NCBI GenBank assembly: GCA_026014725.1
Contig: JAOZHV010000052.1
Location: 1 to 64,000, forward strand
Length of the DNA: 64,000 nucleotides
Reading direction: 5' to 3'
Origin: Candidatus Bathyarchaeota archaeon
GTDB taxonomy: Archaea > Thermoproteota > Bathyarchaeia > Bathyarchaeales > Bathycorpusculaceae
Numbering within the stretch: position 1 is the stretch's first letter; each line of letters opens with the position of its first letter. A model generated the notes under the pieces. That model searched no databases. It worked only from the letters and a program-made list of their open reading frames with translations, and was not told the origin of the DNA. This document shows positions 16,635 to 51,231 of the stretch, one piece after another. The position numbers and the translations under genes were made by a program.

Positions 16635-16688
16635 GCATATTTGTATCCTAATAGTGGTTCTATGCAGAAACCTATAGGGGGTAGGTGT
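16635..16688 (+). repeat. Repeat block 2, copy 1
   Basis: The 54-base block reads GCATATTTG, then CTATGCAGAAACCTATAG, then GGGGGTAGGTG. Two further copies, inverted, lie at 50175-50228 and 50259-50332. The copy at 50175 matches at about 46 of 54 positions. In this orientation a TATA-like CTATAG precedes the G-tract. Confidence 0.8.
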
Positions 16689-16724
16689 TATTGACGCTTT
16701 TTCAAGCCAAAGCGTGTTGGTTTT

Positions 16725-16828
16725 TTCACTGCGACCATACGCTACTACGACCATTAGTGCACATTTGCCCCTTAGGGATGGTCGCGGTAAAACTGCCGTG
16801 TCAGATAATACTTGATGGTCGCAGTAAA
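16725..16828 (-). repeat. Quartet of 14-bp inverted boxes (locus 1)
   Basis: Boxes at 16725-16738 and 16741-16754 read TTCACTGCGACCAT and GCTACTACGACCAT. Boxes at 16778-16791 and 16815-16828 read ATGGTCGCGGTAAA and ATGGTCGCAGTAAA, the reverse complement. The outer pair is complementary at all 14 positions if one G-U pair is allowed, so a cruciform or RNA hairpin is possible. The same architecture occurs twice at 49863-50137. Confidence 0.8.
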
Positions 16829-16862
16829 CCCGCCCACAACCACCCAGCGTCCTAAACTCGCG

Positions 16863-16900
16863 TTATATAAGGGGATAGGGGTAGGTGCAGAGCAACAAAA
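16863..16900 (+). repeat. Repeat block 1, copy A
   Basis: TTATATAAGGGGATAGGGG followed by TAGGTGCAGAGCAACAA. It shares the TATA-like box, the G-tract and the GCAGAGCAACAA end with copies at 19603, 28574, 32111, 49581 and 49975. It points toward the 3' end of the next gene, so it is not that gene's promoter. Confidence 0.8.
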
Positions 16901-49618: not shown

Positions 49619-49862
49619 GGGGTTTTTTTCTTGGTGTGAGTGTGGATGCAAAAGACCGCCGAAGAAATCGCAAGAACAGCAATTGGTTAGGACAATGTGT
49701 TTTGGGCGCTAGCATGGCCCATAGGGTTTTTTCTTTCGCCCGTCAGCTAAACCAAGCCTGAACGCGTCCTATAAACAATTTTGCGACTTAAAATAACGAT
49801 TAAAAATGGCTGATTATTGAAAGGAGCTTTCAACCGCTACGATAACAGTGTTGGGTTTGGCG

Positions 49863-49971
49863 TTTACTACGTACATGACGGTTGCGACCAAAAATTTACC
49901 ACGTACATTCCAACAGCCCTCCCTTGTACGTAGTAAACAAAGCCTGGAGCCCTTGCAATGTACGTAGTAAA
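49863..49971 (+). repeat. Quartet of 14-bp boxes, TACAT variant (locus 2a)
   Basis: TTTACTACGTACAT at 49863 and TTTACCACGTACAT at 49895, then the reverse complements TTGTACGTAGTAAA at 49924 and ATGTACGTAGTAAA at 49958. The forward-forward-reverse-reverse plan equals the other quartets, but the right half of each box is TACAT rather than ACCAT. Confidence 0.8.
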
Positions 49972-49974
49972 CAG

Positions 49975-50013
49975 GCTTTGCTCTGCCGCGAGCCCCCCTC
50001 CCCCTATAAAAAG
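49975..50013 (-). repeat. Repeat block 1, copy F
   Basis: On the minus strand: TTTTTATAGGGGGAGGGGGG, then CTCGCGGCAGAGCAAAGC. The most divergent copy, in which the ATAGGG part became AGGGGGG. It sits between two box quartets. Confidence 0.7.
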
Positions 50014-50026
50014 CAATTTGGACGGT

Positions 50027-50137
50027 TTTACTACGACCATCAAAGAGCCAACTGGGGCTGCCTTGGAGAATTTCACCACGACCATCCACGCGGGGCAATA
50101 TGCCGTAATGGTCGTAGTAGCGTACGGTCGCAGTAAA
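50027..50137 (+). repeat. Quartet of 14-bp boxes, ACCAT variant (locus 2b)
   Basis: TTTACTACGACCAT at 50027, TTCACCACGACCAT at 50072, then ATGGTCGTAGTAGC at 50108 and ACGGTCGCAGTAAA at 50124. The last two boxes are separated by 2 bases, exactly as in locus 1, where the same GCGTA junction occurs. Confidence 0.82.
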
Positions 50138-50174
50138 AAGTCAACATGCTAATGGCTTAAAAAACCGCCAATAG

Positions 50175-50228
50175 CACCTACCCCTCTATAGGTTTGTACA
50201 TAGAACCTCTAATAGGCTCCAAATATGC
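50175..50228 (-). repeat. Repeat block 2, copy 2
   Basis: CACCTACCCCTCTATAGG on the plus strand, then CATAGAACC and CTAATAGG, ending CAAATATGC. Inverted homolog of 16635-16688, at the same position relative to the box quartet. Confidence 0.8.
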
Positions 50229-50258
50229 TTGCTCCATAACGGTGCAGGGCGCAGATTT

Positions 50259-50332
50259 CACCTACCCCTCTATAGTTTCTGCATAGAATTCCTAATAGCA
50301 TCCAAATAGGATACTAATAGACGCCAAATAGG
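50259..50332 (-). repeat. Repeat block 2, copy 3 with tandem sub-repeats
   Basis: Starts CACCTACCCCTCTATAG, contains GCATAGAA, then two direct sub-repeats of about 22 bases (CTAATAGCATCCAAATAGG and CTAATAGACGCCAAATAGG). Copies 1 and 2 each have one such unit. Confidence 0.75.
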
Positions 50333-50341
50333 TTGGTGAGC

Positions 50342-50357
50342 TACGCAAAATTGCGTA
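50342..50357. promoter_or_regulatory. 16-bp palindrome upstream of the restriction-modification remnant
   Basis: TACGCAA-AA-TTGCGTA is a perfect 7-bp inverted repeat. It lies about 65 bases before the remnant start and may have been its operator. Confidence 0.4.
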
Positions 50358-50422
50358 CAACCTTCGCCCTTATACGGTTTAGAGGCAAAGTTTTATCTTT
50401 CAACACTTCGTATGGCTTTGAC

Positions 50423-50692: not shown

Positions 50693-50905
50693 ATGACCTC
50701 TGAAGCTGAGCTTAAAGAAATTCGGAGTCTACTTTTAGAATTAAACAGGAAAGTGCAAGGGCTAAATGAATTAGTCGAAGAAAGACTAATCGGTTATGAA
50801 AAACCCACTAAAGACGACATTGCAGCTATAGAGGAATACGAAGCGGCAAAGCGAAACAAAAAGTTGTCCCTTGAACCTTTGAGTGAATTAACCAAAGGGA
50901 ACTAA
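50693..50905 (+). CDS. Antitoxin of a RelBE-type module
   Basis: 70 residues, mostly helical and charged. N-terminal helix TSEAELKEIRSLLLELNRK, then a longer linker and a C-terminal tail likely to wrap the toxin. It stops 3 bases before the RelE-like gene, the typical antitoxin-first order. ATG 50693 is preferred; an in-frame GTG at 50666 is possible. A TTAAATATA stretch at about 50655 may be the promoter. The DNA-binding fold is not obvious. Confidence 0.75.
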   Translation: MTSEAELKEIRSLLLELNRKVQGLNELVEERLIGYEKPTKDDIAAIEEYEAAKRNKKLSLEPLSELTKGN

Positions 50906-50908
50906 ACT

Positions 50909-51175
50909 TTGCCCAGATACAACGTTTTCATTGAAAGCAAAGCTAAAAAACAATTCAAAAAGATACCAAAAGACCAGCAAACACGCATCCTCACAGCGCT
51001 CAATACCCTAGAGACTGAGGGATTGTCAAACAAATTAGACATCAAGAAACTGCAGGGCTACAGGTACCACTACCGAATCAGAATTGGGAAACTTGTCAGA
51101 ATACGTTTTGAGCTTTCTGCAGACCGAACAATAATCGTTTACTCAATCTCTACACGCGAAAAAGCATACAAGTAG
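50909..51175 (+). CDS. relE: RelE-family toxin
   Basis: 88 residues. The RelE fold is readable: FIESKAKKQFKKIPKD at the start, LQGYRYHYRIRIGKLVRIRF in the centre and IIVYSISTREKAYK at the end. These basic and aromatic residues match mRNA-cleaving toxins. It follows its antitoxin by 3 bases. Likely an active module for stress or plasmid-like maintenance. Confidence 0.88.
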   Translation: MPRYNVFIESKAKKQFKKIPKDQQTRILTALNTLETEGLSNKLDIKKLQGYRYHYRIRIGKLVRIRFELSADRTIIVYSISTREKAYK

Positions 51176-51231
51176 CTAACTGTGAGTTAAACAGAAAGAA
51201 TTCTCTAAGCCGGCTGAACCGCAACAGAAGG

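Follow-up and report, generated by a model that had tools for sequence, protein, structure and literature searches.

The window studied here, 64,000 nucleotides of contig 52 in the 2.56-Mb assembly of a Bathyarchaeia MAG (labelled G000 in the comparisons), carries quartets of short boxes in two spellings. Almost no chromosome-maintenance sites are known from uncultured archaea. A short motif that changes its spelling in concert over the chromosome, and inside a nuclease gene near replication genes, makes two questions testable, namely what reads the boxes and how specificity can switch over an entire set of sites.

Boxes in the window

The original prediction listed twelve boxes, each consisting of TTTACYRCG followed by ACCAT or TACAT, in three quartets ordered forward-forward-reverse-reverse (F-F-R-R). 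All twelve were found in place, but only six are exact, the other six having one or two mismatches, as follows.

16725-16738, + strand: ACCAT-type box, R2 of the inverted copy, TTCACTGCGACCAT, one mismatch
16741-16754, + strand: ACCAT-type box, R1 of the inverted copy, GCTACTACGACCAT, two mismatches
16778-16791, - strand: ACCAT-type box, F2 of the inverted copy, TTTACCGCGACCAT, exact
16815-16828, - strand: ACCAT-type box, F1 of the inverted copy, TTTACTGCGACCAT, exact
49863-49876, + strand: TACAT-type box F1, TTTACTACGTACAT, exact
49895-49908, + strand: TACAT-type box F2, TTTACCACGTACAT, exact
49924-49937, - strand: TACAT-type box R1, TTTACTACGTACAA, one mismatch
49958-49971, - strand: TACAT-type box R2, TTTACTACGTACAT, exact
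50027-50040, + strand: ACCAT-type box F1, TTTACTACGACCAT, exact
50072-50085, + strand: ACCAT-type box F2, TTCACCACGACCAT, one mismatch
50108-50121, - strand: ACCAT-type box R1, GCTACTACGACCAT, two mismatches; the usual R1 form among ACCAT quartets
50124-50137, - strand: ACCAT-type box R2, TTTACTGCGACCGT, one mismatch

The single mismatches give TTCACTGCGACCAT at 16725, a ..TACAA end at 49924, TTCACCACG.. at 50072 and an ..ACCGT end at 50124, and both two-mismatch boxes (16741 and 50108) read GCTACTACGACCAT. The F-F-R-R order is present in each quartet, and the quartet at 16725 is the 50027 element in inverted orientation. The left half, claimed to be constant, is not strictly so; in ACCAT quartets, the inner of the two inverted boxes nearly always deviates at base 1 or 2. 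With up to two mismatches allowed, the window holds 17 matches against 4.3 expected, a number reached in none of 100 shuffles.

Quartets across the genome and their repeat surroundings

Pattern searches of the G000 genome identified 66 exact TTTACYRCG(AC/TA)CAT boxes, and the reversed control pattern gave none. Most of the 66 sit in quartets or pairs, hence they are not scattered singly at random. The quartets number approximately 17 of the ACCAT type, with spacers of about 31, 25 and 2 bp, and 11 of the TACAT type, with spacers of about 13, 12 and 13 bp. When only the left half was specified (TTTACYRCG N74-104 CGYRGTAAA), about 20 quartets were recovered, and their right halves were ACCAT or TACAT bar point variants. 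The quartets are intergenic, the sole overlaps being with short and probably spurious frames.

Multiple alignment and blastn placed the quartets in mosaic repeats that share left and right modules and include recent duplicates. The modules found in the window are as follows.

16641-16692, - strand: right flanking module of the inverted ACCAT element (multiple alignment)
16846-16899, - strand: left flanking module of the inverted ACCAT element (multiple alignment)
49679-49832, + strand: further dispersed intergenic module, with 86% identity to locus L030; L014 and L035 have it close to their ACCAT quartets as well
49974-50026, + strand: left flanking repeat module (GCTCTGCC..CCCTATAAAAAGC), common to most ACCAT quartets (multiple alignment)
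50176-50230, + strand: right flanking repeat module (CACCTACCCCTCTATAGG..CATAGAACCTCTAATAGGCTCCAAATATGC) (multiple alignment, blastn)
50255-50362, + strand: tandem copy 2 of the right module with an extension, repeated elsewhere in the genome (blastn)

Thus embedded in larger mosaic repeats, the intergenic quartets of G000 look like the product of repeat amplification. A mosaic of four or more dispersed modules makes up whole intergenic regions (49679-50362 of the window, 2676-3274 of L030 and 2657-3277 of L035), and these three loci are ~74% identical over 600 bp, a BIME-like landscape. At L042 (3018-3130), R1 and R2 of an ACCAT quartet are merged into one box, as if the direct copies had recombined. 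A small gene pair on the + strand (50695-51176) adjoins the quartets of the window, and its second gene resembles a RelE-type toxin by eye.

A signal of target-site duplication was absent, as direct repeats averaged 3.9 bp in an element's own flank pair and 4.1 bp in mismatched pairs. A scan of the window for tRNA and tmRNA genes and a scan of a viral collection for the quartet gave no match, and among GTDB contigs the quartet matched the record of G005 alone. Among the papers searched, none dealt with intergenic repeats or SegB in Bathyarchaeia.

Pairing of the boxes as RNA

The possibility that the boxes are conserved stems in folded transcripts of the quartets, also raised by the original prediction, is now very improbable. 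F1 can pair with R2 and F2 with R1, RNAalifold finds both stems in each quartet family, and the switch from AC to TA preserves complementarity. The outer boxes of locus 1 had been said to pair fully if one G-U is allowed; those of the TACAT quartet (49863/49958) pair perfectly with no G-U, and those of the 16725 quartet need one, on the minus strand only. However, folding of both families revealed conservation of sequence without covariation. No compensatory double change was found in the box-box stems; such changes were confined to spacers, in 1 of 24 pairs of one alignment and 2 of 26 of the other, and RNA stems are therefore not supported. Box variants C6 and G7 produce A.C mismatches on one strand, and the inner inverted box keeps its mismatches with its partner through nearly all ACCAT quartets. 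The four boxes of a quartet switch in unison, a behaviour that pairing by itself would not require. An Rfam search of the window gave no match.

Dialects across related genomes

Exact boxes are all ACCAT in G006 and all TACAT in G005, both congeners of G000, and other genera use TACAT or AGYAT/AGGAT right halves. A search of the family with TTTACTACGNNYAT, which is unbiased at the NN positions, gave a single dominant NN class in each genome with boxes and mixed singletons in other genomes. The dominant class is TA in G005, G034, G035, G074 and G070, AG in G032, G033 and G063, AC in G006, and AC plus TA in G000. The genomes compared are incomplete, and as they are related, shared dialects are not independent events.

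Spacers and flanks in G005 and G006 are unrelated to those of G000, and only the box and the inverted layout are retained from one species to another. Several ACCAT boxes of G006 form F-7-F-acgt-R-13-R palindromes, a family of its own. The spacers of convergent pairs cluster at 4, ~13 and ~24 bp, approximately one helical turn apart, many of the pairs being homologous copies. Judged by eye, proximity of the boxes to the origin is clear in some genomes only, those of G000 and G105 being spread out.

Boxes within a nurA-like gene

Box palindromes also lie inside the coding sequence of a gene for a protein of ~340 residues. The protein had no Pfam or NCBIfam match by sequence. In a Foldseek search its model (pLDDT 71, moderate confidence) matched NurA of S. 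solfataricus best (2ygk, E 6e-8), and HerA-NurA complexes were among the top matches, with the NurA-HerA-like TdpAB complex second. The gene belongs to a conserved block that encodes HerA (an adjacent DUF87/HerA gene), NurA, a 145-aa wHTH protein, Cdc6/Orc1 and the small subunit of polymerase D. The boxes are located mid-gene, with the wHTH gene upstream of them and co-oriented; the region ahead of that gene holds none except in G063.

Every dialect genome with a readable nurA copy has 2-5 boxes of its own dialect in this gene at the same codons, and matching boxes occupy homologous codons in ~14 genomes from two families. The encoded peptides are YGRSNYLKD and YYDH..YGRS for ACCAT, HVRRSYLQD and YHVHGDVRS for TACAT, and HTRSNFLTD and YYEHEDPRS for AG; the spelling in nurA follows that of the dispersed boxes even at the cost of amino-acid changes. 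When codons were shuffled with the protein preserved, the observed box count was reached in 0-3 of 400 shuffles for 14 of 15 typed nurA genes and in 17 of 400 for G006, which shows selection at the level of DNA. Untyped nurA homologues, from genomes without boxes, contained no box. One box pair was inserted in frame as a short segment, at a loop modelled with low confidence (residues 142-153); the other boxes arose by substitution, switch dialect in concert and change amino acids.

Given that the spelling is concerted between the chromosome and the nurA coding sequence, nurA codons predict the box type of the genome. Dispersed AG-type boxes were correctly predicted in this way for G063 (35 versus 1 control), G033 (13 versus 2), G032, G050 and G056. 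AG-type counts may be inflated because TACTACGAG codes for a plausible peptide (YYE), and boxes of this type overlap in part with frequent strings of codons. Outside the family, boxes were found in the nurA genes of G105 (AGGAT) and G115 (ACCAT). Dispersed AGGAT boxes were correctly predicted in G105, but the prediction failed in G115, where no dispersed ACCAT boxes were found.

Within the genus, nurA was found in 3 of 32 genomes, G000, G005 and G006, which are also the genomes with dispersed boxes. In the remaining 29 it was not found, though it is present in the conserved orc1 block of other genera. NurA is 79% identical between G005 and G035 and 62% between G006 and G005, the corresponding values for the wHTH protein being 70% and 83%. 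The divergence of NurA between dialects thus exceeds that of its neighbours, and it remains after box codons are masked.

In three genomes the nurA frame is interrupted by stop codons with the boxes intact (G070:C23:27137-28137, G033:C123:15193-16191 and G032:C160:15591-16577, with one stop, TAG, in G032). Such frames could reflect a fault in the assembly, recoding, or a decaying gene whose DNA keeps a function.

Boxes in other coding genes

A methyltransferase gene, presumably PrmC-like as judged by its motif, carries a TACAT box in 6 of 8 TACAT genomes (G000, G005, G034, G035, G070 and G074) and in 0 of 19 others, and lies 20-35 kb from nurA where one contig holds both. This shows where a conserved TACAT site is kept in G000, with its ACCAT-type nurA. 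In G000 and G005 alone, a gene of the APH family is spelled with box codons; G006, G013 and G034 have synonymous codons that form no box. Most box matches in G063 are intragenic.

Several of the single boxes in coding genes are coincidences, among them those in the OPRT and DP1 genes, where the box is not conserved across species. A tyrosine recombinase with an embedded box pair was also considered as a general explanation and rejected, because only two genomes, G035 and G067, have it (G005 has a degenerate form) and G067 lacks exact boxes elsewhere. In tyrosine recombinases with an N-terminal zinc ribbon, an inverted box pair lies just upstream of the ribbon (L152 1501-1536, L140 1451-1486 and L099 478-540). 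In both G000 and G006, the gene for a protein of ~690 aa (L027 3012 and L118 3853) has an ACCAT box over matching codons, KFYYDH/KFYHDH.

What reads the boxes

Box DNA under selection on both strands, at sites that all switch together, calls for a sequence-specific reader of DNA. The coordinated switch that had been taken to point to a DNA-binding partner is well supported, since it spans whole genomes, at least three spellings, and boxes within the nurA-like and methyltransferase genes. The boxes could accordingly be seen as double-stranded recognition sites of a putative specificity-switching protein, probably a chromosome-organising one of the parS/SegB kind; this reading is given a little less than an even chance. 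Real dispersed boxes, with spellings that are specific to species and recur inside nurA, are probably read by a DNA-binding protein that aids chromosome organisation or maintenance.

In such a system, a constant core (ACTACG) and a specificity segment of 2-3 bp (AC-CAT, TA-CAT or AG-YAT/AG-GAT) would define the dialect of a species. The putative binder would probably occupy inverted, helically phased pairs as a dimer or higher oligomer, and the F-F-R-R quartet may be a site for two dimers. Conservation is strongest for the cluster of sites inside nurA, in the orc1-wHTH-nurA-herA block by the replication genes, and other sites are scattered over the chromosome in genes and intergenic repeats. 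In G000, the network may have been amplified as two intergenic quartet families in mosaic repeats, each dialect having one family. As dialect-specific binders, the wHTH proteins encoded in the nurA/herA block were considered and rejected, as the recognition helix of the two HTH proteins is identical in all dialects.

The boxes might instead serve the HerA-NurA machine as a Chi-like or self-recognition sequence, the copies in nurA being autoregulatory or self-marking. The restriction of dispersed boxes within the genus to genomes with nurA, the unusual divergence of NurA with dialect and the fold matches to NurA and TdpAB would fit this, but some nurA genes lack boxes, the interrupted frames of G070, G033 and G032 keep theirs, and ~70 sites per genome are few for a Chi-like signal. 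NurA is not known to read sequence, and a role of this kind appears unlikely, with NurA-HerA nonetheless kept as a candidate reader. It is judged rather improbable that the nuclease gene itself carries the species-specific dialect of the HerA-NurA system, with its boxes as self-marks or control sites that change in concert with specificity.

It is quite unlikely that the boxes are operators for a common type of transcription regulator whose DNA-binding domain drifted and so gave rise to the dialects. The boxes do form intergenic pairs and quartets, some with TATA-like elements 20-50 bp away, and 12-13 of the 17 ACCAT elements are directed at a co-oriented downstream gene. However, other elements lie between convergent genes, the most conserved sites are mid-nurA rather than upstream of the wHTH gene (G063 excepted), and the HTH proteins of the block are invariant with dialect. 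Little probability is likewise given to selfish palindromic repeats of the REP/BIME, MITE or Rickettsia-palindrome kind with no role in the host. The mosaic repeats with their recent duplicates, the nurA box pair inserted in frame in a low-confidence loop and the separate palindrome family of G006 favour such repeats, but the other nurA boxes arose by substitution with a concerted switch and amino-acid changes, and boxes persist where spacers and flanks differ between species. The negative target-site duplication test counts against a MITE origin. A selfish origin of the G000 quartets is nevertheless compatible with a host role of single boxes.

Comparison with known systems

The preferred reading, a specificity-switching protein bound to chromosomal sites, finds its closest parallel in chromosome-organising or partition sites (parS/NBS and SegB), because of the number of boxes, the location of part of them inside genes and of some near origins, and the 2-bp switches between dialects. 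parS can sit inside coding genes near the origin. The parS and NBS sites differ by two bases and are read by the specificity-switched paralogues ParB and Noc (PMC7383237). The box dialects are likewise 2 bp apart in spelling, but the sequence is another one, and each box is a 14-bp half-site rather than one 16-bp palindrome. SegB sites are 13-bp palindromes with the core AGA(G/C)TCT, present at 46-49 per genome, 84% intragenic and near oriC (PMC12284271). The boxes resemble them in part, as tens of short palindromic sites per genome, some intragenic and some seemingly near origins and chromosome-maintenance genes. They are intragenic in nurA, the methyltransferase and APH genes and most G063 matches, whereas the G000 quartets are intergenic, and origin clustering, by eye, is seen in some genomes only. 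The boxes, TTTACYRCG(AC/TA/AG)YAT, differ from SegB sites in forming pairs and quartets with 4/13/24-bp spacers and in their strong dialect switching, and since the SegB core is absent from them, no membership of that family is claimed.

DNA uptake sequences form intergenic inverted pairs. Those of Neisseriaceae are described as genome-wide dialects of a short motif (PMC3630211), as also seen for the boxes, but they number hundreds to thousands of copies against the 66 exact boxes here. The boxes would add an archaeal case beside the parS/NBS and uptake-sequence dialects. With REP/BIME, MITE and Rickettsia palindromic elements the boxes share the form of dispersed inverted repeats in mosaic intergenic elements and insertion in a coding loop; they differ in the lack of target-site duplications, the concerted change of dialect and selection on box codons. 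As to Chi and HerA-NurA, the boxes co-occur with the NurA-HerA gene pair, but are of low copy number and sited inside the nuclease gene. Adjoining herA, L185 (7604-8353) and its orthologues encode a conserved protein that might tether DNA to the membrane, with an N-terminal hydrophobic segment, a coiled coil and, at its C terminus, a MarR-like winged helix.
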